Source: Candidatus Bathyarchaeota archaeon | GTDB lineage: Archaea; Thermoproteota; Bathyarchaeia; TCS64 | Assembly (NCBI GenBank): GCA_020346605.1 | Contig: CP070784.1 | Location: 1,287,221-1,340,574 of the forward strand | Length of the DNA stretch: 53,354 nt | Direction: 5' to 3' | Shown here: piece by piece, positions 881-46,001 of the stretch | Position numbering within the stretch: position 1 is the stretch's first letter | Layout of the letters: each line of letters begins with the position of its first letter | Position numbers and translations under genes: made by a program | Notes under the pieces: model-generated | The model's database searches: none | What the model saw: only the letters and a program-made list of their open reading frames with translations | What the model was told of the DNA's origin: nothing

Positions 881-1192
881 ATGGCGAAAAAGATCAAGAT
901 CACCGTCGTGAAGGGATTCACGGCCGAGGAGGTGTTCGACGGGGAGGTGCCCGATCACTTCCCCGAGAATTTCGAGAGCCCGTGCCCGATGCACCCAGTA
1001 GGGCAGGAGTTCGTCATGGAGAACCCGAACTGCCCCGAGGGATTCTGCAACTGGGCCTATGCAGACATCCAGAAGGACCTGGTGCGTCTGTGGATCGGCG
1101 GCCCGACCGGGAAGGAGCGGAACCCCAACTACTACAGCTGCACGGATGGCATGAGGCCCGTGGTCTTCAAGGTGGAGCTGCTGGAGGAGTGA
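881..1192 (+). CDS. TIGR04076-type protein, paralogue 1
   Basis: This 103-residue protein opens with KIKITVVKGFTAEEVF and belongs to the small TIGR04076-type family, whose function is not known. Conserved features shared with three other copies here are an N-terminal beta strand followed by a [EF]-rich helix, a Cys near residue 35, the C-N-W-A-[YF]-A-D-I block near residue 58, and an S-C-T-D-G turn followed by a V-V-F-K strand at the end. The three conserved Cys could bind metal or be redox active; that is inference. A TATA-like TTTTTTATA lies at about 837-845, and the start is ATG at 881. The next paralogue starts 2 bases after this stop, so they form an operon. Confidence 0.8.
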   Translation: MAKKIKITVVKGFTAEEVFDGEVPDHFPENFESPCPMHPVGQEFVMENPNCPEGFCNWAYADIQKDLVRLWIGGPTGKERNPNYYSCTDGMRPVVFKVELLEE

Positions 1193-1194
1193 AG

Positions 1195-1506
1195 ATGACG
1201 AAGGTAAAGATCACCGTGGTCAAGGCGTTCTCGAAGGAGGACGTCTTCGGCGACGATGTCCCCGAGGACTTGTCGAGTACTCAAAGCCGATGTGGCAGGC
1301 ACAGACCCGGCGAAGTGTTCATCGCAGAGGGCAGGAACCCTCCCGAGGGGCTGTGCCCCTGGGCCTACGCGGACATCTTCAGGGACGTGGTGATCCTGTG
1401 GAGGGGCAGCGACTTCCCCTGGGTTGGGAAGCCAGGGGTCATGTACTCGGCCTGCACGGATGGGAGGACGCCGGTGGTCTTCAAGTTGGAGAGGATCGAG
1501 GACTGA
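1195..1506 (+). CDS. TIGR04076-type protein, paralogue 2
   Basis: A 103-residue second copy of the TIGR04076-type family, directly after paralogue 1. It shows the same order: KVKITVVKAF at the N-terminus, the G-D-D-V-P-E-D turn, Cys near 36, C-P-W-A-Y-A-D-I near residue 59, then S-A-C-T-D-G and V-V-F-K-L-E. The middle (VGKPG) is closer to paralogue 4 at 2863 than to its neighbour. The ATG at 1195 follows the previous stop by 2 bases and uses a GGAGG site inside the end of paralogue 1. Function is unknown. Confidence 0.8.
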   Translation: MTKVKITVVKAFSKEDVFGDDVPEDLSSTQSRCGRHRPGEVFIAEGRNPPEGLCPWAYADIFRDVVILWRGSDFPWVGKPGVMYSACTDGRTPVVFKLERIED

Positions 1507-1550
1507 GCTATGACTCGTGCGCAGAATGAGGAATATGAGAGTGAATCCCC

Positions 1551-1898
1551 ATGATCGCATACTGCGGGCTGGACTGCTCAGAGTGCGAAGCATACGCAGC
1601 AACTCAGGATAACGACTTCAAGGCCCTCGTGGCGCTGGCAAAAAAATGGGGAGAAAACCACGACACGTCCTATAAGCCCGAGGACATCGAGTGCGAGGGC
1701 TGCCAGAGCGACAGACTGAACAAGTACTGCATCACATGCGGGGTCAGGTGTTGCGGGGTGAACCATGGCTTCGAGACTTGCGCCGAGTGCCGGGACTACC
1801 CGTGTGACAAGCTCGGCAAAGAATGGAAGTCATGGAACATGGCAGATTGGACGAAGGTCAAGGTGGCCCTCGACGAAAGGAGCTCGGAGGGTGATTAG
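1551..1898 (+). CDS. DUF3795-type cysteine-rich protein
   Basis: A 115-residue protein starting MIAYCGLDCSECEAY, the typical opening of DUF3795 proteins. It holds twelve Cys, mainly C-x-x-C pairs: CSEC near residue 9, CEGC near 49, a CITCGVRCC cluster near 61 and CAEC..PC near 77. This suggests a metal or Fe-S cluster, but no cluster type can be assigned. It is 44 bases after the TIGR04076 pair and 2 bases before the NTF2-like gene, so all are probably one transcript. The family has no established function. Confidence 0.75.
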   Translation: MIAYCGLDCSECEAYAATQDNDFKALVALAKKWGENHDTSYKPEDIECEGCQSDRLNKYCITCGVRCCGVNHGFETCAECRDYPCDKLGKEWKSWNMADWTKVKVALDERSSEGD

Positions 1899-1900
1899 TT

Positions 1901-2332
1901 ATGCCCGGTTCAGATGAGACGAACGAAGAGTGCGAGATTTCAAAAGTGATCCACGATTCCTTCGGATGGGCCCTGACCAAAGATCGAGCACTCTTCGAAA
2001 GCATCTTTGCGAAAGACGATGACTTTTTCACATTTTATCCGGACTCCAAGAGCACCGTCGTAGGATGGAACCAGTTCGAAACATTCTTGGATAGGTGGAT
2101 AGACCCCCGAAACAAAGCCAAAGGATTTGACATAAGAGACCTGAGGGTTGTTATCTCGAAGACGGGAGAGGCAGCTTGGTTCTCGGCTGTAGTGGACGAT
2201 GAAGGAGAGTTCGATGGGGCGCCTTGGGGCCTCAAGGATGTCCGATGGACGGGAGTTCTGGAGAGACGCGGTGGGAGCTGGGTGATATGTCAACAGCACA
2301 TGTCAGAAGCGAACGATGGGGGCTCAAAATGA
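1901..2332 (+). CDS. NTF2/SnoaL-like domain protein
   Basis: A 143-residue soluble protein that fits the NTF2-like (SnoaL, ketosteroid isomerase-like) fold: an N-terminal helix (VIHDSFGWALTKD), F-F-T-F-Y-P near residue 43, the G-W-N-Q-F helix, then long beta strands (AAWFSAVVDDEG and VRWTGVLERRGGSWVICQQHMS). The final W-x-I-x-Q-x-H-x-S strand is characteristic of the fold. Members are enzymes or small-ligand binders; the substrate cannot be told. The ATG starts 2 bases after the DUF3795 stop, so the two genes are coupled. Confidence 0.7.
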   Translation: MPGSDETNEECEISKVIHDSFGWALTKDRALFESIFAKDDDFFTFYPDSKSTVVGWNQFETFLDRWIDPRNKAKGFDIRDLRVVISKTGEAAWFSAVVDDEGEFDGAPWGLKDVRWTGVLERRGGSWVICQQHMSEANDGGSK

Positions 2333-2526
2333 TGGCTGTAAGAACATCAGCACTCGTCGGAGGGCGATCTCCAAGTGGGTGCCTTCTTCCCATGACGCAT
2401 CCTGAGACAATGTCACTAAGAATCTCACAGCGAGGGATACAAAGACTGATTGAAAGATATACCCGCAGCGATTCCATGGTTATTTATGTTGGCTCTGTCC
2501 GCAGAATTTTGGAGGAGTGAAAAGAT

Positions 2527-2853
2527 TTGTCTAAGATCAAGATAACAGTGGTCAGGGGTCTGACGAGTAGGGAGATCTTCGGAGACGACATCCCGGAACA
2601 CCTACCTAATTCAAACCCGGACAGGAAGTGCGGCTACCACGTGGCGGGTCAGGAGTACGTCTCCGTCGACCACGGCTACCCCGAGCCGGTCAACGCCGAA
2701 CGGAGGTTCTGCCACTGGGCCTTCGCCGACATCCAGAAGTACCTCGTCTTCATGGACTTCGAGAACGAGCTCTACGGCCGGGGGAAGCCGGGCTACGCCG
2801 CCTGCACCGACGGGACGGCGACGGTGGTGTTCAGGCTGGAGAGGGTCAAGTAG
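2527..2853 (+). CDS. TIGR04076-type protein, paralogue 3
   Basis: A 108-residue third member of the TIGR04076-type family: KIKITVVRGLTSREIFGDD, a Cys near residue 37, C-H-W-A-F-A-D-I near residue 62 and A-C-T-D-G with V-V-F-R-L-E at the end. The start appears to be TTG at 2527, with GGAGGAG at 2511-2517 at suitable spacing and no ATG close by. A TATA-like TTATTTATG lies near 2480. It has a longer Pro/Asn-rich loop before the C-H-W-A-F block than the other copies. Paralogue 4 follows within 10 bases. Confidence 0.8.
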   Translation: MSKIKITVVRGLTSREIFGDDIPEHLPNSNPDRKCGYHVAGQEYVSVDHGYPEPVNAERRFCHWAFADIQKYLVFMDFENELYGRGKPGYAACTDGTATVVFRLERVK

Positions 2854-2862
2854 GTGATTGCT

Positions 2863-3174
2863 ATGAATAAGGTGAAAATAACCGTCTTGAAGTGCTTCAC
2901 TAAGGAGGAGATCTTCGGGGACGACGTCCCCGAGGACCTTGTCGATTCAGTCACCCCCTGCGAAGCGCTCTCGCCCGGCCAGGAGTTCGTCATGGAGAGC
3001 ATGGTCTGCCCACCGGGTTTCTGCAACTGGGCCTTCGGAGACATCTACAGGGACGTCGCCCAGCTCATGATGGGAGGAGACTTCCCCTTCATCGGGAAGC
3101 CCGGGACGATGTTCTCTTCGTGTACGGATGGGAAGAGGCCGGTGATTTTCAAGCTAGAGAGAATAGAGGGTTGA
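2863..3174 (+). CDS. TIGR04076-type protein, paralogue 4
   Basis: A 103-residue fourth copy: NKVKITVLKCFTKEEIFGDDVPEDL, Cys near 32, C-N-W-A-F-G-D-I near residue 58, S-S-C-T-D-G near 88 and V-I-F-K-L-E. I start it at ATG 2863, which has a GGTGA site at 2853-2857; a GTG at 2854 would add three residues and bury the site. It forms a tandem pair with paralogue 3. A T-tract follows directly after the stop, so transcription probably ends here. Confidence 0.8.
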   Translation: MNKVKITVLKCFTKEEIFGDDVPEDLVDSVTPCEALSPGQEFVMESMVCPPGFCNWAFGDIYRDVAQLMMGGDFPFIGKPGTMFSSCTDGKRPVIFKLERIEG

Positions 3175-35546: not shown

Positions 35547-35557
35547 TTTATATATAA
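35547..35557 (+). promoter_or_regulatory. TATA box of the DUF6754 operon
   Basis: TTTATATATAA in a strongly AT-rich 90-base stretch, 50 bases before the first start codon. The expected transcription start is near 35577. The AT-rich surroundings and near-ideal box suggest strong expression. Confidence 0.6.
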
Positions 35558-35566
35558 CGTTAAAAA

Positions 35567-35582
35567 TACGCTTTAAAGCGTA
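35567..35582. promoter_or_regulatory. Perfect 16-bp palindrome over the predicted start of transcription
   Basis: TACGCTTTAAAGCGTA covers the expected transcription start of the DUF6754 operon, 15 bases after the TATA box and 24 bases before the ATG. A dimeric repressor bound here would block polymerase. The same sequence was not seen upstream of the MutL-like operon. Confidence 0.55.
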
Positions 35583-35606
35583 AAAGGAAAAAAAGGAGTA
35601 AAAAAA

Positions 35607-36389
35607 ATGCCGATAATACAAGAAGGACGAATTATGGATCTTTTGCTCTTCATAGTGCTTTCAGCCGCAATGTACTACTACCTTGAAAGGATCCGATCGA
35701 ACAAGCCCCTGCCAAGGATCAGGCGTCTCGCCGCCTTCGAAGCGATAGAGGAGGGCGTAGGGCGAGCCGTCGAGACCGGGAAGATGGTGTTCATGGAAGC
35801 GGGGTTCGGTACACTGACTAGAGGCGCCTACGCCCCCATGACCATGGCTGGAATGAACGTGCTCAGGCACGTGGCGAAGCTGTGCGCGGAGCGTGACGCG
35901 AAGCTGCAGTTCGGTGCAACGGGCTACGAGATCCTGCCCCTGGCAGAGGGGATAGTTGAGGAGGCCTACAAGGTCGCAGGGAAATCGGACGAGTTCAGTG
36001 AAGACATGATACATTTCTTCGGAAGTGGTTTCGCAGGCAACATGTCCGAGGCCTCATACATGGTTGAGAACGGCTGTGCGTGTCTGGTGATGGTCGGCGC
36101 TTTCTCAACTTCCTGCTTGGTCCTCCTCGGAGCGTCTAGGAGGTCTGGGGCCATTACGATAGGAGGAACAGGTAGGTGGATCATGATGTATGCCTTCGGT
36201 ATTGCATCAGACTTCCTATTCATACTTGAGGACATCTATGCCGCAGGCGCGCTGGCGTCCGGGGACACAACAGTCATGACGACGTTGGCTGTCGAAGACA
36301 TCTTGAAATATCTGGTACTGGCTCTCTCGATAATCGGAGGTTTGCTCGCAATGATTGCAGTCGACTTCGTATCGTTCATAAAGATGTAG
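35607..36389 (+). CDS. DUF6754-type membrane protein (first gene of membrane operon)
   Basis: A 260-residue protein. Residues 10-26 form a membrane helix (L-L-L-F-I-V-L-S-A-A-M-Y-Y-Y-L). Then comes a DUF6754-type domain: A-F-E-A-I-E-E-G-V-G-R-A-V-E-T-G-K near residue 42, F-G-T-L-T-R-G near residue 70, G-F-A-G-N-M-S-E-A near 142, M-V-G-A-F-S-T-S near residue 163, G-G-T-G-R near 187. A last helix lies near 232-250. Function is not established. It is the head gene of four co-directional membrane genes with gaps of 11 bases or overlaps. The start at ATG 35607 follows AAGGAG (35592-35597). It probably forms the core of a membrane complex with the next three products; inference. Confidence 0.7.
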   Translation: MPIIQEGRIMDLLLFIVLSAAMYYYLERIRSNKPLPRIRRLAAFEAIEEGVGRAVETGKMVFMEAGFGTLTRGAYAPMTMAGMNVLRHVAKLCAERDAKLQFGATGYEILPLAEGIVEEAYKVAGKSDEFSEDMIHFFGSGFAGNMSEASYMVENGCACLVMVGAFSTSCLVLLGASRRSGAITIGGTGRWIMMYAFGIASDFLFILEDIYAAGALASGDTTVMTTLAVEDILKYLVLALSIIGGLLAMIAVDFVSFIKM

Positions 36390-36400
36390 GTGAATGCGAA

Positions 36401-37054
36401 ATGTCTAGAGAAGTTAGAAGGACAATTCCTCTCTACCTGATCATGGGATTGTGTGCCTTTTTCTTGTTAGAGTACTTTGCTGATATTTCAGCTATAACAG
36501 GGGTCAAGAGCGAGATAACCCGTTGGGGGACCATTGTTTCAGGATTTATGCTGATCTTCGGTGTGGTTCTGCTGATCCGACATCACTTCATGCAACTCGC
36601 TGTACGCAATGTCGGGCAGAGGGAGAAGATACTTAGCGTGGTCTTCTTCGTCTCCTTCCTCGCCTTCCTCCTCATAGGGTTCTCGACACCCGAGAGGACA
36701 GGCGGAACAAACTACCAGTGGATCTATCAGAACATGTACAGGCCGGCGGGCACAGCCATCACGGCTCTCTGTTTCTGGTGGTGTATCTATGGGGGCTACA
36801 AGACCTTCACGATCAGGTCGTGGGAGTCCGCCTCCATCGGTGCAGGTGCAGTGATATACATGCTGAGATTGCTGCCTATCGGACCAGTCTTCGTCCCACC
36901 ACTGGCCCCCTTGGCAGACTGGCTCTTGGCGACCATAAACGTCGGCGCGACGAGAGGCGGGACCCTCGCCGTTGGAGCCGGTTCTCTGGTTCTTGGAATG
37001 CGGACGTTGCTTGGTAAGGAAACAGGTGCCCTTGAGGCGGTTCAGGAGGGTTGA
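36401..37054 (+). CDS. Polytopic membrane protein of the DUF6754 operon
   Basis: A 217-residue integral membrane protein with about six membrane helices: residues 11-28, 42-60, 77-94, 115-132, 142-160 and a last weaker one near 187-203. Charged loops (R-N-V-G-Q-R-E-K near residue 68) lie between the second and third. I recognise no transporter or energy-coupling family. The ATG at 36401 uses GGTGA at 36389-36393. The gene begins 11 bases after the DUF6754 gene and ends within the start region of the next, so coupling is strong. A role as a membrane scaffold or channel for the DUF6754 protein is inference. Confidence 0.65.
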   Translation: MSREVRRTIPLYLIMGLCAFFLLEYFADISAITGVKSEITRWGTIVSGFMLIFGVVLLIRHHFMQLAVRNVGQREKILSVVFFVSFLAFLLIGFSTPERTGGTNYQWIYQNMYRPAGTAITALCFWWCIYGGYKTFTIRSWESASIGAGAVIYMLRLLPIGPVFVPPLAPLADWLLATINVGATRGGTLAVGAGSLVLGMRTLLGKETGALEAVQEG

Positions 37055-37056
37055 GA

Positions 37057-37893
37057 GTGAGCATCTACAAGAAGCTTAGGGAGATCCCCGATGGATACCT
37101 CGGTGTGCTCTCCATAGTATTCATGCTGATACCCATTCTCTACCCCATGGGGCTACCCCTACAGATCTCAGACCCCACCAAGGGATACTACAACACTCTG
37201 AGAAACCTGCCAGAAGGATCACTCGTTTGCATCGATGGAGGTGGAGGCTTCGCCTCATTGGACGAGTTCGAATCATCGATAACTGCGACGATGAAGGTGA
37301 TGCTGTCCCTCCCGATCAAATGGTTTTCCTGGGGATATGGCTATGACGGACCCATACTGATGGACATGGTGCTGGACAACATCAACCCAGAGGGCTTTGG
37401 GAAGGTATATGGGGAGGACTACCTTGTCCTGCCCTATATCGCTGGGGGAGAGATGGCCGTCGCCTCGGTTGCATCGGACACCCAAGCCGTGGCGACGAAC
37501 GATTTCTACGGCAACGCCCTATCCCAGTACCCACTGTGGGACGAGATCACAGGGGCTGAAGACTTCGCACTGGTGATAACCATTAGCGGCAGCTGCCTCA
37601 ACATGGACCAGGAGACGCGCCAGTGGTACACCATCTATGGTATACAGCTGCTGGAGATTAACATGGCTTGCTGTTCACCAATGTCCATGAACTACTTCCC
37701 CGACGTCATGCCGGGGGGACTGTGGGGCGTCAAGGGTGGTACGGAGCTGGAAGTCCTTTCCGGGTTCCCTGGTCCGGGGGCCCGTCTGTCTGACTCTCAA
37801 AACCTGGCCCTCATGCCGTTTCTGGTCTTCCTGATACTGGGCAACATTGGCTATTTCGGTACTCTGTACCTGACGAAGGAGGAGGATAGTTGA
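37057..37893 (+). CDS. Two-helix membrane protein with large external domain (DUF6754 operon)
   Basis: A 278-residue protein with one hydrophobic helix near residue 14-32 (L-G-V-L-S-I-V-F-M-L-I-P-I-L-Y) and another near 245-268, and a domain of about 210 residues between them. This domain has glycine-rich turns (I-D-G-G-G-G-F) and several Cys (C-L-N-M-D near 189, A-C-C-S near 213) that look conserved-type but carry no known motif. It could be DUF6754-related but I cannot show it. I start it at GTG 37057, with AGGAGGG at 37044-37050; TTG 37051 would overlap the previous stop. It ends within the TGATG junction with the fourth gene. Confidence 0.6.
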   Translation: MSIYKKLREIPDGYLGVLSIVFMLIPILYPMGLPLQISDPTKGYYNTLRNLPEGSLVCIDGGGGFASLDEFESSITATMKVMLSLPIKWFSWGYGYDGPILMDMVLDNINPEGFGKVYGEDYLVLPYIAGGEMAVASVASDTQAVATNDFYGNALSQYPLWDEITGAEDFALVITISGSCLNMDQETRQWYTIYGIQLLEINMACCSPMSMNYFPDVMPGGLWGVKGGTELEVLSGFPGPGARLSDSQNLALMPFLVFLILGNIGYFGTLYLTKEEDS

Positions 37894-38516
37894 TGACATT
37901 CGGTGACATGATGGCTGCCTGGACCTTCGCTATATTCAGCCTCGCGATACTATCGTATCTCTGGAAGCTGAACTATGTCTACAAGATCGCCGAGACCTTC
38001 GCGGTAGGGTCACTGCTGGCACACACATTCGTCAATACCTGGACAGGGTCGATCGAGGGGATCTGTCTTAACCCCCTCATGGCTGGCGATGTAATTCGCA
38101 TTATACCTCTGATCTTCGGGCTGCTGGCTTTCACAAGGCTGTCACGCCGGTACGCTTGGATTTCCAGGTACCCCACAGCTTTGCTGGCTGGGGTAGGTAC
38201 CGGTGTCATGTTCGGAGCTACTTTCGACGCTCAAATACTAACTCAGCTGGCAATGACCGCTCAGGGCTTCATCGACAGGGACTTCTTCAGTGCCGCTGTC
38301 ATACTGGTCGGTGTCTTCGCGACACTCACGTACTTCATATACACTCAGGAGCACACCGGAGCCCTTGGGATATCCGCAAGGCTGGGCCGCATCTTCGCCA
38401 TGTTCTCTTTCGGGATGAACTACGCGGCGGAGCTTATCTGGTACGTAACCCTAGTAGTAGGGATAATGATCCGTCTTGTAGACCTCTGGATAAAAGGCGC
38501 TATCCTAGGTATGTAG
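37893..38516 (+). CDS. Polytopic membrane protein, last gene of the DUF6754 operon
   Basis: A 207-residue protein with about six membrane helices (residues 11-27, 32-50, 68-84, 95-112, 132-151 and 168-200, the last perhaps two). ATG 37893 overlaps the stop of the previous gene by one base (TGATG), and GGAGG at 37878-37884 gives the site. Small residues cluster in the fourth helix (L-L-A-G-V-G-T-G-V-M-F-G-A). No family is recognised. Its tight linkage to the other three suggests a stoichiometric partner. A C4-T6 terminator follows the gene. Confidence 0.65.
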   Translation: MTFGDMMAAWTFAIFSLAILSYLWKLNYVYKIAETFAVGSLLAHTFVNTWTGSIEGICLNPLMAGDVIRIIPLIFGLLAFTRLSRRYAWISRYPTALLAGVGTGVMFGATFDAQILTQLAMTAQGFIDRDFFSAAVILVGVFATLTYFIYTQEHTGALGISARLGRIFAMFSFGMNYAAELIWYVTLVVGIMIRLVDLWIKGAILGM

Positions 38517-38527
38517 AAAAACATAAT

Positions 38528-38537
38528 CCCCTTTTTT
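38528..38537 (+). terminator. CCCCTTTTTT terminator of the DUF6754 operon
   Basis: The run lies 12 bases after the stop of the fourth gene and no hairpin precedes it. It marks the operon as a four-gene unit, separate from the peptidase gene that has its own TATA-like box near 38612. Confidence 0.5.
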
Positions 38538-38649
38538 ATCTTAATTCAGCTGGGATCCAGATTGGATTCCGTGTCGAGCCAATAAATCCGGCAAGATCAT
38601 GGATTGGAAAGTTATAAATGAAAATTATAACACCACTCTTTGATTCATA

Positions 38650-40740
38650 ATGAATTCTGCATATAGCCGCCTCATGGAGGAAGCTCTCTCCGGGGAGGAG
38701 GCGAAGAACTTCGCCAAGGAGATCTCGCTCCATCACAGAGTCTCCGGGAGCTCAGGTTTCCACGAGGCCATCGAGTACGTGAAGTGGATGCTCAAGAACT
38801 TTGGCCTCGAGGTCAGCATAGACACCCGTCCCATGGACGGGGAGTTCAAGATATGGACCTGGACCTTCCCCAGGGCATGGGACATCGTGTCGGCGGAGCT
38901 CGAGGTAATAGAACCCGAGCCGGAGACGATAACCACTTTCGACGAGACACCCGTCTCCGTCTACAAGTACTCGGCTCCGACGCCTCCCGGGGGGATTGAG
39001 GCAGAACTTGTATATGTCGGGGAGGGAACCGAGGAGTCGTGCTACGAAGGCAAGGACGTCGAGGGGAAGATCGTCCTCGCCCGGGGATCTGGCCAGGATG
39101 TCGCGACGCTCTCCATGAGGCAGTACGGCGCCGTCTGCGTCATAACAGACTACCTCCGCCCACATCCCCCCGTCAAGACCAGGCTGGGGACGCCCGATCT
39201 CGTGCAGGACGCCTCCATAAGGGGCGGCGACAAGGACCTGAGGGCCTACTCCATCTCGTACAACCAGTTCAAGCGCCTCAAGGAGCTGCTGGATAGAGGC
39301 CCAGTCAGGGTCAGGGCCAAGATCAACGCCTTCTTCATCGAGCCTGGGGTTCTGGAGACTGTGATCGCGAAGATCCCGGGCTCCACCCTGCCCAACGAGG
39401 AGGTGGTGGTCATACCTCACATCTGCCACTACAGGCCCGGAGCCAACGACAACGCCGCCGGCGTGGGCCTCGTCATGGAGGTCGCCAAGGTGATACAGCG
39501 GGCGATAGAGAGCGGCAGGATCGAGCGGCCCAAGAGGACCATCACCTTCATCATCGGGGCGGAGATGTACGGCTCCCTCTCCTACCTGGAGAGGAACTGG
39601 GAGAGGAGGTATGAGATCGTGGGGGGCTTCTGCCTCGACATGCTGGGGGAGGACCAGGAGAAGACGAAGGCCGGCGTGGAGGTCTCGTCGGTCCCTGACT
39701 CGCTCCCGACGTTCCTCAACGACCATATCGCATCTCTCTTCGAGGGTGTGAAGCGTAAGACCCTCTACCGTTGGCACAACGCCAACAGGTGTTACAAGTA
39801 CGACTCCCTCACAGTCAACTTCCGCTACAACATCTCCCAGTTCTCCCCCGGGAGCGACCACCTAATCTTCGACGACTCCAGCGTAGGGGTGCCCGTCATC
39901 CAGTTCGGCCACTGGCCTGACATCTACTACCATAGCAGCGGCGACGTCATCGAGATGGTCGACCCTGAAGAGCTGAAGAGGAACGGCCTCGTCTTCGGCA
40001 CGGCGCTGCTCAATCTGGCGAACACGGGTCCCGAGCAAGCGAACACCCTGATGAACCACGTGTACACCCAGTCGATCAAGAGGATAGCCGACAACGGCGG
40101 CAGGGCCAGGGACGAAGCGATCGAGGTCTACGAAAGCTGCAATCTGGAGGGCGTGGACAACGATGAGCTGGCGGGAAAGATTTCCGACCTGGTCGAGCTG
40201 GAGTCCAAGAGGCTCGACTTCCTCGCAGACAGGGACAGGAAGGGCCTCAGGTCAGCCCTGCGATTGATAAAAGACGAAGACGCGAAATCGCAGGACAAGT
40301 CGAGGGAGCTGGCTGAGTCTCTCTGCGGAGCGATTGAAGGAGCCCTGAGGTCCGAGAAGGAGACCCTGGTGACCTTCACATCGTCTCTTCTAGGTGAAAC
40401 TGGGCACGGGGCAGAGGGCACGCTGAGTGAAGTTGAGGAGGCGTACGAGGCGACCGTGCCAAAGCGCAACTTCATCGGATCTCTGTCGGGCAGTGACTTC
40501 ATGCGACGGCTCACACCCGAGAGGAGGAAGCAGTACATAGAGTGGGTGACATCGGGGAGGGAGCTCGTGTTCGGCAACCTGAACGCCAAGATCGTGGAGA
40601 TGTGGAGCTTCGCCGACGGCGAGAGGAACATCGCCCAGATCGCTGAGGCTGTCACCTTTGAGTACGGGCCCACGGATCACAAGCTCGTAATGGAGATCTT
40701 CAGCGACCTGGAGAAGATCGGCTACGTCGAACTCGCCTAG
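38650..40740 (+). CDS. M28-family peptidase-like protein with long C-terminal extension
   Basis: A 696-residue protein. The N-terminal region has an M28-type prodomain with an inserted PA-like domain (E-G-K-D-V-E-G-K-I-V-L-A near residue 130). The zinc site is visible: C-H-Y-R-P-G-A-N-D-N-A-A-G near residue 259 (His and Asp), G-A-E-M-Y-G near residue 301, S-D-H near 402, and Y-Y-H-S-S-G-D near residue 425. The last 200 residues are charged and helical and end in a winged-helix-like stretch (W-S-F-A-D-G-E-R-N-I-A-Q-I-A-E), which is unusual in this family. It should be a cytosolic or peripheral aminopeptidase. It follows the DUF6754 operon but has its own promoter. Confidence 0.78.
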   Translation: MNSAYSRLMEEALSGEEAKNFAKEISLHHRVSGSSGFHEAIEYVKWMLKNFGLEVSIDTRPMDGEFKIWTWTFPRAWDIVSAELEVIEPEPETITTFDETPVSVYKYSAPTPPGGIEAELVYVGEGTEESCYEGKDVEGKIVLARGSGQDVATLSMRQYGAVCVITDYLRPHPPVKTRLGTPDLVQDASIRGGDKDLRAYSISYNQFKRLKELLDRGPVRVRAKINAFFIEPGVLETVIAKIPGSTLPNEEVVVIPHICHYRPGANDNAAGVGLVMEVAKVIQRAIESGRIERPKRTITFIIGAEMYGSLSYLERNWERRYEIVGGFCLDMLGEDQEKTKAGVEVSSVPDSLPTFLNDHIASLFEGVKRKTLYRWHNANRCYKYDSLTVNFRYNISQFSPGSDHLIFDDSSVGVPVIQFGHWPDIYYHSSGDVIEMVDPEELKRNGLVFGTALLNLANTGPEQANTLMNHVYTQSIKRIADNGGRARDEAIEVYESCNLEGVDNDELAGKISDLVELESKRLDFLADRDRKGLRSALRLIKDEDAKSQDKSRELAESLCGAIEGALRSEKETLVTFTSSLLGETGHGAEGTLSEVEEAYEATVPKRNFIGSLSGSDFMRRLTPERRKQYIEWVTSGRELVFGNLNAKIVEMWSFADGERNIAQIAEAVTFEYGPTDHKLVMEIFSDLEKIGYVELA

Positions 40741-40757
40741 AACTGCTCTAAGCTCTC

Positions 40758-41219
40758 CTATTCGTTTCGGGGCCGGTTAAGAGGGGCACCGGGGAGGCTC
40801 AGCTTTAGCTCTCCCCTTTCTCCCAACCTCCCGCCCAGGAGCCCGCCGAGGAGGTAACCGAGGAACACCCACATCTCCTCGAACTGGTTAGTGACGCCCA
40901 GTAAGGACAGGGCCACGTAAACGATGTAGGAGTACAATCCGATGACTGCTCCTGTGAGCAGGTGGTTCTCTACCCTGTTCTTCGTCAATAGGTAGCCCGA
41001 GGCGGCTCCAGAGAGCATCGTCATTGCCCAGGAGCCGAGTATCTGGTACAGCGTCGAAAACATCCTGAGGTAGGGCGAAAGGAAAAAAGACAGGACAATC
41101 CTGATCCCGTTGGCGAAAAAGGCTCCCGACAGGTACTGGGTTATGGTCATCTTCTTCGACAACGGAGGCACAGTCCCCTTGTGTCGTAGATAATTGTGGT
41201 ATCCTCCTATAACATTCAC
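40758..41219 (-). CDS. Small polytopic membrane protein
   Basis: A 153-residue protein with about four membrane helices, at residues near 30-50 (F-A-N-G-I-R-I-V-L-S-F-F-L), 55-75, 88-106 and 117-132. The last contains a glycine zipper (L-G-Y-L-L-G-G-L-L-G-G-R-L-G), a shape seen in DUF5518-like and other small archaeal membrane proteins. No function can be assigned. The start is ATG 41219; a TATA-like TTTTAATT lies near 41255. It converges with the M28-like gene. Confidence 0.6.
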   Translation of the reverse strand: MNVIGGYHNYLRHKGTVPPLSKKMTITQYLSGAFFANGIRIVLSFFLSPYLRMFSTLYQILGSWAMTMLSGAASGYLLTKNRVENHLLTGAVIGLYSYIVYVALSLLGVTNQFEEMWVFLGYLLGGLLGGRLGERGELKLSLPGAPLNRPRNE

Positions 41220-41388
41220 CCTTTCCTTTTCCTGCTTCGTTCAACACTGCGCCAATTAAAAGCATGAAGCCATCATTTTTTACTACCGCCAAACAAGTGC
41301 TCCAATATGCGGTCATACGGCTCCTTTTTGACAACATTGCACTTGAAAAAAGGCTTAAATTCGCTGAAAAATATAGGAACAAGGGATA

Positions 41389-41730
41389 ATGGGTATTAGA
41401 GATAGATTAGCGAGAATGTTTCAGAGTCTAAAAGAGAGTGATGAAAGTAGTAGTTATATTCCCACTATGGAGTTGAGCCCTGAAAAGGAAGACGAAATTA
41501 TAGATAAAATAGTGGACAAGGTAGTTAACTATAAAATGAAGTCGGCGGCTCTCCTCTTCTTCCGTTCCTACAAGCCGATGAGTTCCTACGGCTCGCAGGT
41601 CGCGCCGGCGATGCTTGGTCCCTTCTTCTTCCTGCTGGATCTCTTCGACATTGAGGGGTTCAACTTCAACGCCTTCTTCATGAAGAGGGAGAACCTGGAT
41701 AAATTAATAGAAAAGATAGAAGCGATCTGA
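41389..41730 (+). CDS. Small hypothetical protein beside the MutL-like operon
   Basis: A 113-residue protein. Residues 1-45 are charged and helical; residues 50-95 are rich in Phe and Leu (A-A-L-L-F-F-R-S-Y-K-P, A-M-L-G-P-F-F-F-L-L-D-L-F-D) and the C-terminus is a helix (E-N-L-D-K-L-I-E-K-I-E). The middle may be an amphipathic or membrane-peripheral segment. The family is not one I can name. Its stop lies 2 bases from the converging BSH/KOW-like gene, and a TATA-like AAATATAGG near 41368-41376 drives it. It might work with the neighbouring MutL-like operon, but this is only from position. Confidence 0.6.
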   Translation: MGIRDRLARMFQSLKESDESSSYIPTMELSPEKEDEIIDKIVDKVVNYKMKSAALLFFRSYKPMSSYGSQVAPAMLGPFFFLLDLFDIEGFNFNAFFMKRENLDKLIEKIEAI

Positions 41731-41732
41731 CG

Positions 41733-42878
41733 CTATTCCTCGATTATCTCCACGTTGGCCCTTGGTACAAGGACTCGGTCTCCGTCCTCGAGTTCTATCT
41801 CGACGATCCTCACGCTCGACTCGGTCTCCACCCTCGCCAGTTCAGGCGGCAGGGAACGGACGTGTCCCACAACGCCAAAGAATGGTTCCTGGATGATCCT
41901 CACCAGGGTTCCCGCTGCCATGCCGTTGGTGCGCTCATCCTCTGCGGCGCCCGGCGCCGTCGAGACCTCTTCCTCCTGCAAAAGGGGGATTATCACCTCA
42001 GGTCTTATGACACCCGCCCTGATCTGCGTCGTGCCGTTGATGCACGCCATCCTTCCTTCATTCTCCTTCAGGATGCTGAACGTCTTCTCCAGCATGTTCA
42101 TCATGCCGAATCCCTCCGTCGCGACCAGGGTCAGCCCTATGTCCTCGTGTCCGGTTATAGCCACACCTATTCGGTAGCCTAGGAAGTCGGTGAGGTCCTT
42201 GTCCATGATCCCGCCCACCAGGATGCCCCTGACGCCAGTATCGATCGCTTTCTTCAGGGCCGCCGCTGTGACCATCGACCCTCCGATGAGGACCTTGCCC
42301 TTGCACTCCGGCGTGATCTGTTCCTCTGTCAGGATGTCGCGGGGCGTCTCCGATGCCATCTTTATCTCGCCGTGGTTCTCCCCGCCTATGCCGAAGGCCC
42401 CCTGAATAAACGCGGCGTAGGTTTCTATGATCACGCCTTCGTTCTGAATGATCTCGACCACTTTGCCCGGTATGTAAGCGTTTATGTTGATGGGCGTGGG
42501 GTGGCGCCTTATGATCGCTTGCCCCGTTATTGGTGACACGCTCTCCACAGTTCCGTCGATGGGAGCTGTGCAGTCGGATTTTATCAAGCCGAAGAGGGCT
42601 CGGTAGCTGGCGATGATCTCGTCGGCCTTGACACTGTCGCCCTCCTTCTTGGTCATGTACTTCCTGATCTCTTCCGGATCGACTCCCAGCAGTGCGCAGA
42701 CCTTCAATATCTCGGGTTCTCCAGGCGTATCCGCCCTGGCTACTATCGTGTCCATGGCGACGGTGTCCCCGGCTTTCACGATGAGCTCCCCCGGTATGGG
42801 TAGCATCCTCGTTTTTCTGATGAGCAGGGACTCCTTCCTCTTTAGGCCCGGTGTGTACGCTTGTGACATGTACTTCAC
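41733..42878 (-). CDS. Barrel-sandwich (RnfC-like) and KOW-like domain protein
   Basis: A 381-residue protein. The N-terminal 150 residues look like a barrel-sandwich hybrid fold as in RnfC or lipoyl-like carriers: L-P-I-P-G-E-L-I-V-K-A-G-D-T-V near residue 27 and I-D-G-T-V-E-S-V-S near 105; but there is no modified-lysine motif. The middle (near 180-290) has repeated glycine-rich turns (V-L-I-G-G-S-M-V and I-L-V-G-G-I-M-D). The last 60 residues fit a KOW/SH3-like domain (G-T-L-V-R-I-I-Q-E-P-F-F-G-V-V-G near residue 322). The GTG start at 42878 overlaps the end of the MutL-like gene by four bases, so the two are coupled. Function unknown. Confidence 0.65.
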   Translation of the reverse strand: MKYMSQAYTPGLKRKESLLIRKTRMLPIPGELIVKAGDTVAMDTIVARADTPGEPEILKVCALLGVDPEEIRKYMTKKEGDSVKADEIIASYRALFGLIKSDCTAPIDGTVESVSPITGQAIIRRHPTPININAYIPGKVVEIIQNEGVIIETYAAFIQGAFGIGGENHGEIKMASETPRDILTEEQITPECKGKVLIGGSMVTAAALKKAIDTGVRGILVGGIMDKDLTDFLGYRIGVAITGHEDIGLTLVATEGFGMMNMLEKTFSILKENEGRMACINGTTQIRAGVIRPEVIIPLLQEEEVSTAPGAAEDERTNGMAAGTLVRIIQEPFFGVVGHVRSLPPELARVETESSVRIVEIELEDGDRVLVPRANVEIIEE

Positions 42879-44695
42879 CCCTTCCTCTTATAGACTTGAT
42901 CTGGATACGCGTCCAGGGCCCTATTCCATTCCCGTAGCTTGGCGATTCTCACCTCTACGTCCTCAGGGAGGACCAACGGTTTTCCCCGAGCATCCAGGAT
43001 TATGCCGACGACCCCGCCCTCGACCTCCGTGTCCAGTCCCCGTCCGAGCCCGGCTCCGATGTCGAACCCTTTCTCTGGTGAGATAGAGACCTTGGCGGTC
43101 TGGCGTTCCCTCAGAGTGATGACCTTGATGGTGCCAGCCGGCATGTTCTCCTCTATCGTCGTCCCGTCATCCATCTTTATGTCGACCGTCATCACCGTGC
43201 TGCCCGATTCCATGTCGACCTCTCCCCTGGGTGCTATGCTGGTTCCCAAGCGGACTAGGCAGTCCTTGTCGAATATCTCCAGCGCGGCCTTGGGTCGGAC
43301 CGTGGAGAGTACCCCGAGGTGGGGCATCATAAAGACGCTGTCCTGAGCGAGCCTGGTGACCCCCTCGATGCTGAAACCGTCCATCAACATCAGCGCCGAC
43401 TGCACCCTTCGGGGCGCGTGCGAAAGTAGGCCCCCTGTACCCCCGATCCATTTTATCTTGAGCATGTCCAGGTAGGTCTCCTCGAAGGACATCTGCTTAA
43501 ACATATCTCCGATGTCCCTCCCTTTGACCTGGACCCCCCTCAGGGGCCTCGCGAGGAACTTGTGGTGCAGGAACGCCAGCCTCAGCGCTTCCCTGGCGAC
43601 GGCGTGCTCTATCATGAGGTTCTCAAGAGTCTGGGGGATGGCTGTGGGGCGCGTCATCTTGTTCCTGAGCCTGTTGATCACGTCGAAGGGATCTATCTCT
43701 ATGGGGAGCCAGCGGACGATGTTCTCTATCCCCGTCTCCTTCAGGACGTTGCAGATGCTGTAGCTCATCCCGAGGTTGGCGCTCACGGTCCTGACGAACC
43801 TGCCGTCGAAGACCGAGTAGACGTTTGTCGTGGCCCCTCCCAGACCGACGCCGAGGACGTTCTCGTTGTACAGCTGGCTGAGCTGCTGGAACATCATCCC
43901 CTCGGCCCCCGGCGTCGGCATGATGGGTACCTCGGTCCACGTCATCAGCTTGTCGTAGCCAGGCGCGTGGGACATTACGTGCTCCATGAAGCACTTGTGG
44001 ATGGCGTCCCTGGCCGGCCCCGGGTTCTCCATCTCCAGCTCGGGGCGGATGTTGTCCACCATCTCCATGGCGAACTGGCCCCCGAAGAACTCCTTTACGG
44101 GCTCCCTGGCTTCGACGTTTCCGGCGAACACGAGGGGAAGCCTGAACTGCCTTCCCAGCCTAGCCGTGGGGTTGGCGCTTGAGATTATCTCGGCCATCTT
44201 CATCACGTGCCTTATTGTGCCGCCGTCCGTACCACCGGCCAGCAGGATCATGTCAGGCCTGAGGTAACGTATCCTCTGTATCTGCTCGAAGACCTTCCTC
44301 TTGTCGTCCGTTGCGAGGGTGTCCATGACTATGGCGCCTGCTCCAAGTGCGACCCTCTCGGCGCTCTCGGCGGTCATCGTCTTTATGACCCCGGCGACCG
44401 TCATCTGGAGGCCCCCGCCCGCACTGCTGGTTGTCACGTACAGATCCACACCCTCACCGTTCCTGGATGGGGTGATGATGCCGCTCTCCGAGAGCAGGCG
44501 CAGCCCCGTCAGCTCCTCGATCTCGCCGACAGCGTTCCTGACGCCCATGGTTACGTCCTCGAACGGGGCCTCGACCGTCGTGGGCGCCTCACCGCTGATC
44601 AAGAACCTCCACTCGTCGTTCTCCATAAGCTTGAATAGCCTGGCCTTGGTCGTTGTACTCCCCACATCGGTGGCTAGGATCAAGGACAAACGCAT
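42875..44695 (-). CDS. Glutamate mutase L (MutL)-like ASKHA ATPase
   Basis: A 606-residue protein of the MutL/GlmL family. The N-terminal L-A-T-D-V-G-S-T-T-T-K-A-R near residue 6 is the ASKHA phosphate-binding motif; I-L-L-A-G-G-T-D-G-G-T near residue 148 and G-V-G-L-G-G-A-T-T-N-V near residue 281 are the others. Named members are linked to B12-dependent glutamate mutase, probably as a repair chaperone. No mutS or mutE lies in the window, so this copy probably acts on another partner. I start at ATG 44695, with GAGGAGAG directly before; an extension to 44773 has no such support. The gene overlaps the barrel-sandwich gene by four bases. Confidence 0.8.
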   Translation of the reverse strand: MRLSLILATDVGSTTTKARLFKLMENDEWRFLISGEAPTTVEAPFEDVTMGVRNAVGEIEELTGLRLLSESGIITPSRNGEGVDLYVTTSSAGGGLQMTVAGVIKTMTAESAERVALGAGAIVMDTLATDDKRKVFEQIQRIRYLRPDMILLAGGTDGGTIRHVMKMAEIISSANPTARLGRQFRLPLVFAGNVEAREPVKEFFGGQFAMEMVDNIRPELEMENPGPARDAIHKCFMEHVMSHAPGYDKLMTWTEVPIMPTPGAEGMMFQQLSQLYNENVLGVGLGGATTNVYSVFDGRFVRTVSANLGMSYSICNVLKETGIENIVRWLPIEIDPFDVINRLRNKMTRPTAIPQTLENLMIEHAVAREALRLAFLHHKFLARPLRGVQVKGRDIGDMFKQMSFEETYLDMLKIKWIGGTGGLLSHAPRRVQSALMLMDGFSIEGVTRLAQDSVFMMPHLGVLSTVRPKAALEIFDKDCLVRLGTSIAPRGEVDMESGSTVMTVDIKMDDGTTIEENMPAGTIKVITLRERQTAKVSISPEKGFDIGAGLGRGLDTEVEGGVVGIILDARGKPLVLPEDVEVRIAKLREWNRALDAYPDQVYKRKG

Positions 44696-44873: not shown

Positions 44874-44883
44874 AAAAAAGGGT
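44874..44883 (-). terminator. CCCTTTTTT terminator of the M42 peptidase gene
   Basis: On the minus strand the stop TAA is followed immediately by CCCTTTTTTCGGG, which separates the peptidase from the MutL-like operon downstream. Confidence 0.55.
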
Positions 44884-45920
44884 TAGATGGAGGAGATCCT
44901 CCTCACGAAGGCCTCCACCAGGCGAACGGAGTTGTCTATGTCTTCTGCGTGGGCGACCGACGCCGGCCCGTGGATGTAGCGGCAGGGCACGGACACGACC
45001 CCAGTCGGGGTCCCGCCCTTCACGAGGTGGATGGCCGAGGCGTCTGTGCCCCCCATCAGGGGCTTCTTGAACTGGTACTGGATGGACTCGGCCTCGGCTG
45101 CGTCCATCAGGGCCTGCAGCACCCCCTGGTCAACGATGATGCCCCTGTCGGCGATCGTCAGTATCGGGCCCTTCCTGAGCTGCGTCACCACGTCGGCTGG
45201 ACCCACTCCGGGCATGTCGACCGCGAAGGTCCCCTCCAGCGCCAGGGCGTAGTCGGGGTCGACCTGCCACGTCGCCGTCCTGGTCCCCCGCAGGCCCACC
45301 TCCTCCTGGACTGCGCCCACGGCGACGATGTTGCAGGGCGAGTCCTTGAGGGCTTTGAAGGCCTCGGCCATGACGTAGCACCCGGCCCTATCGTCGAAGG
45401 CTTTCCCTCTGATGTATCCGTCTCCCAGCTCGACGAACTCCACGTCGAAGACCCCCATCGTGCCGACCCTGCAGCCCTTCTCCTTGGTCTTCTCAAGGCT
45501 GTCGGAGCCTATATCGATGAAGAGCTTGTCCACCGGGACCACGCTCTTCCGCTCCTCATCCGTCATGACGTGGGGCGGCTTGACGCCTATCACTCCCCTC
45601 AGCGGGCCCTTGCTGCCCTTCAGCCGTATCCTCTGCCCGGGCATGACGCCCGGAACGATGCCGCCGATGTTACTGAATCTAAGGAACCCGGTGCTCTCGA
45701 TGTAGGTGACGATGAATCCGACCTCGTCGGTGTGGGCGTCGATGAGTACCCTGGGGCGCCCCTTCTCTCCGTTGTGGTGGAAGAAGATATTGCCCATGCG
45801 GTCCACCCTCACCTCGTCGGCGAAGTCCTCCAGCTCGGCTCTCAAGACCTCCCTGGGTTCACCCTCATTCCCCGGAGGCCCGAAGGCGTTCGAGAGCCTC
45901 CCGAACAGATCAACGTTCAT
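44883..45920 (-). CDS. M42-family aminopeptidase (TET type)
   Basis: A 345-residue metallopeptidase of the M42 family, whose members form large tetrahedral complexes that trim peptides in archaea. Metal ligands are in D-A-H-T-D-E near residue 61, F-D-D-R-A-G near residue 173 and V-Q-E-E-V-G near residue 206 (the catalytic Glu pair), with G-G-T-D-A near 289 and I-H-G near 316. I start at ATG 45920, which follows GGTGA; a GTG three codons earlier overlaps that site. A T-tract follows the stop. Peptide digestion here would feed the other peptidases in the window. Confidence 0.92.
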   Translation of the reverse strand: MNVDLFGRLSNAFGPPGNEGEPREVLRAELEDFADEVRVDRMGNIFFHHNGEKGRPRVLIDAHTDEVGFIVTYIESTGFLRFSNIGGIVPGVMPGQRIRLKGSKGPLRGVIGVKPPHVMTDEERKSVVPVDKLFIDIGSDSLEKTKEKGCRVGTMGVFDVEFVELGDGYIRGKAFDDRAGCYVMAEAFKALKDSPCNIVAVGAVQEEVGLRGTRTATWQVDPDYALALEGTFAVDMPGVGPADVVTQLRKGPILTIADRGIIVDQGVLQALMDAAEAESIQYQFKKPLMGGTDASAIHLVKGGTPTGVVSVPCRYIHGPASVAHAEDIDNSVRLVEAFVRRISSI

Positions 45921-46001
45921 TGCGATCACCGTTTCTAGGATTTTTATTTATAAAAGGATGCACCATGGGTGACAAGGGCTCTGCCCGCCCGATAGCAAGC
46001 A

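Follow-up and report, generated by a model that had tools for sequence, protein, structure and literature searches.

A conserved seven-gene membrane module combining DUF6754 membrane proteins with a MutL-family ATPase in Bathyarchaeota and bacteria

Within a stretch of 53,354 nucleotides from a Candidatus Bathyarchaeota archaeon (contig CP070784.1; "the window" hereafter means this whole stretch), four membrane protein genes (A to D) on the plus strand lie close to a minus-strand pair encoding a MutL-family ATPase (M) and a barrel-sandwich/KOW protein (K), with a small gene (S) in between, and the question arises whether these genes form one system and, if so, what that system does. A sequence-only reading had named all seven genes, and each was confirmed at the place given to it (Table 1). 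Genes A and B are separated by 11 bp, and overlaps of 4 bp are present at B-C, C-D and K-M. The segment between D and S carries an M28 peptidase gene and a gene for a TIGR04086/DUF3792-like membrane protein, the latter of which looks incidental to the module. According to the alignment, M probably has its conserved start at position 44695, matching the end coordinate of the first reading.

Table 1. Coordinates of the module genes and context genes in the window
Feature	Position	Strand	Basis
A, DUF6754 membrane protein	35607-36389	+	PF20539 140.6 bits, cut-off 27
B, six-helix membrane protein, predicted N-in	36401-37054	+	Order between A and C, topology, alignment
C, TM, external Rossmann-like domain (predicted outside), TM	37051-37893	+	AlphaFold2 model, alignment
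D, six-helix membrane protein, predicted N-out	37890-38516	+	Place after C, topology, alignment
M28-family peptidase, context gene	38650-40740	+	PF04389 61.7 bits
TIGR04086/DUF3792-like membrane protein	40758-41219		
S, small conserved protein	41389-41730	+	Alignment; elsewhere often directly upstream of M
K, putative adaptor: barrel-sandwich (14-180), alpha/beta (184-300), KOW (323-378)	41733-42878	-	AlphaFold2 model
M, MutL-family ASKHA ATPase, ~610 aa	42875-44773	-	PF13941 (MutL) 389 bits, cut-off 27; alignment
M42 aminopeptidase, context gene	44883-45929	-	PF05343 322 bits

The archaeal genome from which the window comes (2.30 Mb), in which genes for a clamp loader and FtsZ were noted, contains five DUF6754 genes and five MutL genes, four of each being co-located (in the window and at loci L011, L012 and L013). 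At L011 the genes S-M-K-A-B-C-D are contiguous on a single strand; L014 has an ABCD set adjoining an M28 peptidase gene with no M nearby, and L015 has M and a K lacking the KOW domain with no membrane genes nearby. Among the four linked copies, the soluble proteins share 50-69% identity (M 58-69%, K 50-57%), whereas the membrane parts share 19-36% (A 26-36%; B, C and D 19-30%).

We found the same association in a class-wide sample of 189 genomes, each at least 80% complete, in which DUF6754 was present in 33 genomes, K in 31 and both in 30 (Fisher p 2.5e-30); the four genomes with one but not the other are assemblies estimated to be 81-94% complete. A count by genus, which bears on this p value and controls for relatedness in part only, gave 19 genera with both A and K, one with A only and 67 with neither, so that 19 of the 20 carrier genera have both. 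MutL scored above the cut-off in 34 genomes of this sample, three of which encode short, high-scoring GlmL-like proteins and have neither A nor K. As to linkage, DUF6754 lies within 10 kb of 30 of the 47 full-length K genes, and 58 of the 93 A genes have no K within 10 kb, which fits a shared engine but also a looser association. When 84,980 species were scanned for K, at least 521 confirmed relatives emerged; the best 80 belong to Bathyarchaeota, Zixibacteria, WOR-3, Poribacteria, Firmicutes, Planctomycetes (with Brocadiaceae and Scalindua), Acidobacteria and others, and the closest named homologues among the matches listed are Bathyarchaeota MAGs and an unclassified archaeon. In bacterial genomes picked by K alone, DUF6754 was found in 45 of 46 and MutL above the cut-off in 44 of 46; DUF6754 was absent from all 14 control genomes. 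The seven genes are a conserved membrane machine across archaea and many bacterial phyla, and the proposal that the two operons belong together, made at first from one locus, is upheld by near-complete co-occurrence, well above chance in the very test then named, and by recurrent linkage both within the genome and across phyla.

Gene order is also conserved. In several unrelated phyla the genes run contiguously as S-M-K-A-B-C-D or M-K-A-B-C-D, and in the gene-called loci, whose selection was based in part on A or K, the exact order ABCD surrounds 65 of the 83 A genes, the rest being partial, with no other order among them; K follows 85 of the 95 M genes, and S-M-K was seen in 28 places. In addition, six bacterial loci (L171-L175 and L177), from WOR-3 and Fermentibacteria-type genomes, encode M and K as one protein of 843-1091 aa, in which the M part is followed by two K stretches, the barrel-sandwich and alpha/beta parts, supporting the pairing of the ATPase with the barrel-sandwich protein. 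ABCD is one conserved unit and M-K one conserved soluble pair that is genetically inseparable from it. Zixibacteria and related bacteria also have two or three ABCD sets in a row, with or without an adjacent M-K (L025, L035, L077, L091 and L170). ABCD sets often outnumber M and K: genome G176 has 13 A and 3 full-length K, G177 has 8 and 2, and the bacterial genome G214 has six A genes and one M.

M belongs by sequence to the MutL/GlmL family (PF13941, methylaspartate (glutamate) mutase accessory ATPase), with the first phosphate motif DxGSTTTK, and it matches the GlmL and Or-4 equivalog models with scores far below their cut-offs. Unlike the family's typical members of ~460 aa, however, it is ~610 aa long, is always paired with K and travels with a membrane unit. 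The remark that M had no mutase to serve was borne out for glutamate mutase: PF06368, the E subunit, is absent from the window's genome, from the other carriers tested and also from the three GlmL-type genomes, in a test that has no positive control and covers, of the B12 mutases, glutamate mutase. Reactivation of glutamate mutase by M was rejected on the absence of this subunit from the window's genome. In bacterial M both phosphate motifs, DxGSTTTK and DIGGATTD, are canonical, whereas the second motif of archaeal M, GLGGATTN, lacks the aspartates of the bacterial one. A second archaeal type of M, of ~575-596 aa and with a degenerate first phosphate motif, occurs at L015 and L119-L125; the K that follows it has 287-310 aa and no KOW domain (at L125 the contig ends within K), and the pair lies away from ABCD. 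A heterodimer of the two types with complementary degenerate motifs, an idea prompted by L015, was rejected since GLGGATTN is the form seen in each of the three M genes of G176 and no second type was found in that genome. For K, the AlphaFold2 model (pLDDT 88.9, pTM 0.74) contains barrel-sandwich, alpha/beta and KOW domains; family matches to the RnfC_N/NqrA_N barrel-sandwich, which scored below the cut-offs, and to SPT5-KOW were weak. The fold search recognised the KOW domain alone, as a NusG/SPT5 KOW, and neither RnfC nor NqrA appeared in its best 50 matches.

The AlphaFold2 model of C (pLDDT 93, pTM 0.87) has a six-strand Rossmann-like domain between two TM helices, the domain being predicted to lie outside; a search of the PDB gave no fold match at E<0.001, only generic Rossmann folds. 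From hydropathy and positive charges, A is predicted to have an N-out TM, a cytosolic domain and a C-terminal TM, and B (N-in) and D (N-out) are predicted to be six-helix proteins of opposite topology. Ahead of TM1, bacterial A proteins have a leader, joined in the one case tested by a detectable FnIII domain, and such extracellular N-terminal extensions support an N-out orientation of A. The six helices of B and D and the external domain and two anchors of C, as first read, agree with hydropathy and with the C model. No family above the cut-off was found for B, C or D in Pfam or NCBIfam, the PDB sequence search returned no useful relative for A, C, D or M (with an alignment of five rows for M), and no known transporter, phage or defence family matched the membrane parts, so the early impression that they belong to no known transporter family stands for Pfam and NCBIfam, and for PDB sequences in the case of C and D. 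Profile comparison detected no homology between B and D; for the idea that A and C are homologues in inverted orientation it gave a weak match (probability 19%, E 0.0012), which is a hint only.

Several known systems share features with the module. To judge from the copy numbers, the module would be laid out like the group II ECF-type ABC transporters, in which a single energising module is shared by several substrate-specific membrane parts, but it has an ASKHA rather than an ABC ATPase, no EcfT or S-component match and four conserved membrane subunits per set. Opp/Dpp oligopeptide ABC importers have similar catabolic neighbours (peptidases, D-aminoacylases, MlrC and creatininase), but the module lacks a permease and SBP_bac_5, and none of its seven conserved genes encodes an ABC ATPase. 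RNF/NQR ion-pumping complexes likewise have a soluble barrel-sandwich subunit (compare the weak RnfC_N/NqrA_N match of K) and six-helix subunits of opposite topology, but the module contains no Fe-S or flavin subunit; membership was rejected on the sub-threshold scores and fold matches of K. The composition of the system matches no known kind of system named or found, and in the open-access library searched no paper names DUF6754 or PF20539.

We consider it about an even chance that the module is a multi-subunit importer, mainly of peptides or acylated amino acids, in which exchangeable ABCD units share an M-K pair. The linkage, order, fusion and copy-number pattern of the genes are observed; complex formation, transport, the substrate, the direction of coupling and the powering of transport by M are what we infer here, as follows: C would receive the solute, B and D would form the translocation path, A with K would couple the membrane part to M, and M would drive or reset the cycle with ATP. 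The ABCD sets would each differ in substrate, with peptides, D- or acyl-amino acids and related amides predominating, and one or a few M-K pairs would serve several sets. The presence of several ABCD sets per M-K, with M and K conserved and A to D divergent, is what one would expect if a shared engine served membrane units that differ in substrate specificity. The more specific proposal, a new class of primary active importers powered by an ATPase of the ASKHA (actin/Hsp70/sugar-kinase) fold, with a shared motor-adaptor and interchangeable four-subunit units, and widespread among uncultured archaea and bacteria, is put forward tentatively, its chances lying below even; to our knowledge, no solute transporter is known to be driven by an ASKHA ATPase.

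The neighbours of ABCD, together with the external domain of C, count in favour of import. Around the window's module, M28 and M42 peptidase genes are joined, as judged by eye, by an S58-type and an M19-type gene. The 54 ABCD neighbours in G176 include five M20-superfamily matches (one of them M42), three D-aminoacylases, and M19, M81, creatininase and others, and none of these families had more than one member among 83 control proteins. Counting M20 and D-aminoacylases only, 7 of the 54 neighbours versus 5 of 207 control genes matched (p 0.004, an optimistic value since the families were chosen after inspecting archaeal neighbours); in two Firmicutes genomes the counts were 10 of 63 versus 11 of 212 (p 0.008), and p was 0.19 when all archaeal neighbour families were counted, in part owing to M42 and S58 genes close to the M-K loci that served as control. 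TonB-dependent receptors are encoded one or two genes after D at L064, L082, L088 and L093, with ExbB at L082 and L088 and ExbD at L082; L082, L088 and L093 are from Fermentibacteria or Aegiribacteria and are not independent cases. The enrichment of peptidase-type neighbours is modest, and this, the choice of families after looking, the Firmicutes value and the lack of a significant anticorrelation between A-copy number and SBP_bac_5 importers (Spearman -0.29, p 0.25) weaken the importer reading, as do the failure to recognise a transport fold and the missing aspartates of archaeal M. Replacement of Opp/Dpp importers by ABCD was rejected on the same correlation. At L099 (G176) and L113 (G177), ABCD directly adjoins genes for CO dehydrogenase/acetyl-CoA synthase delta and related genes, neighbours that would be unexpected for a peptide importer.

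Diverged M-K pairs without ABCD were found in Firmicutes genomes (L179, L180, L182 and L184; G198, G201 and G203), adjoining FtsX-type ABC permeases at L180, L182 and L184 (L184 by synteny) and an MFS protein at L179. This suggests that other membrane systems are also served by M-K pairs, with a wider role at membranes; another energy source exists there, and a pure-motor role and the importer reading are weakened in consequence. The main rival, which we hold to be possible but unlikely, is that M-K would use ATP to assemble, repair or reactivate ABCD, whose transport would draw on another energy source. EutA and PduG-type ASKHA proteins have such a role for B12 enzymes, and M comes from a family whose ATPases are accessory to mutases; the genes of M-K are often sub-stoichiometric (3 for 13 A, 1 for 6 A), its paralogues lie beside other membrane transporters, and the degenerate second phosphate motif of archaeal M may fit a slow switch better than a fast motor. 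However, A to D have no recognised cofactor or damage-prone centre, and the contiguous M-K-A-B-C-D operons look stoichiometric. It is improbable that the proteins instead form a signalling, export, envelope or membrane-enzyme complex under M-K control: the domains of C and A, Rossmann-like or of unknown type and on opposite sides, are compatible with a sensor or enzyme, and no transporter fold was found, but many divergent copies per genome and the nearby peptidases, D-aminoacylases and TonB receptors fit uptake better. Finally, the view that the two operons are adjacent but unrelated and that M is an ordinary accessory protein of glutamate mutase, as its MutL annotation and the GlmL-length proteins of some relatives might suggest, is contradicted by the co-occurrence and linkage data and by the lack of Met_asp_mut_E in the window's genome, and is very improbable indeed.

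If M powers ABCD, as the importer proposal in its specific form would have it, the module would represent a new transport mechanism in lineages that include Bathyarchaeota, Zixibacteria, WOR-3, Poribacteria and anammox relatives, and may help to explain how the organisms with these peptidase-rich genomes obtain nutrients; even with the role of M confined to assembly or repair of the complex, the seven genes are a conserved, multi-copy membrane machine spanning two domains of life. Elsewhere in the window, positions 881-3174 encode a local family of small proteins (103-108 aa), four similar members arranged as two pairs, with the starts KITVVKGFT, KITVVKAFS, KITVVRGLT and KITVLKCFT.
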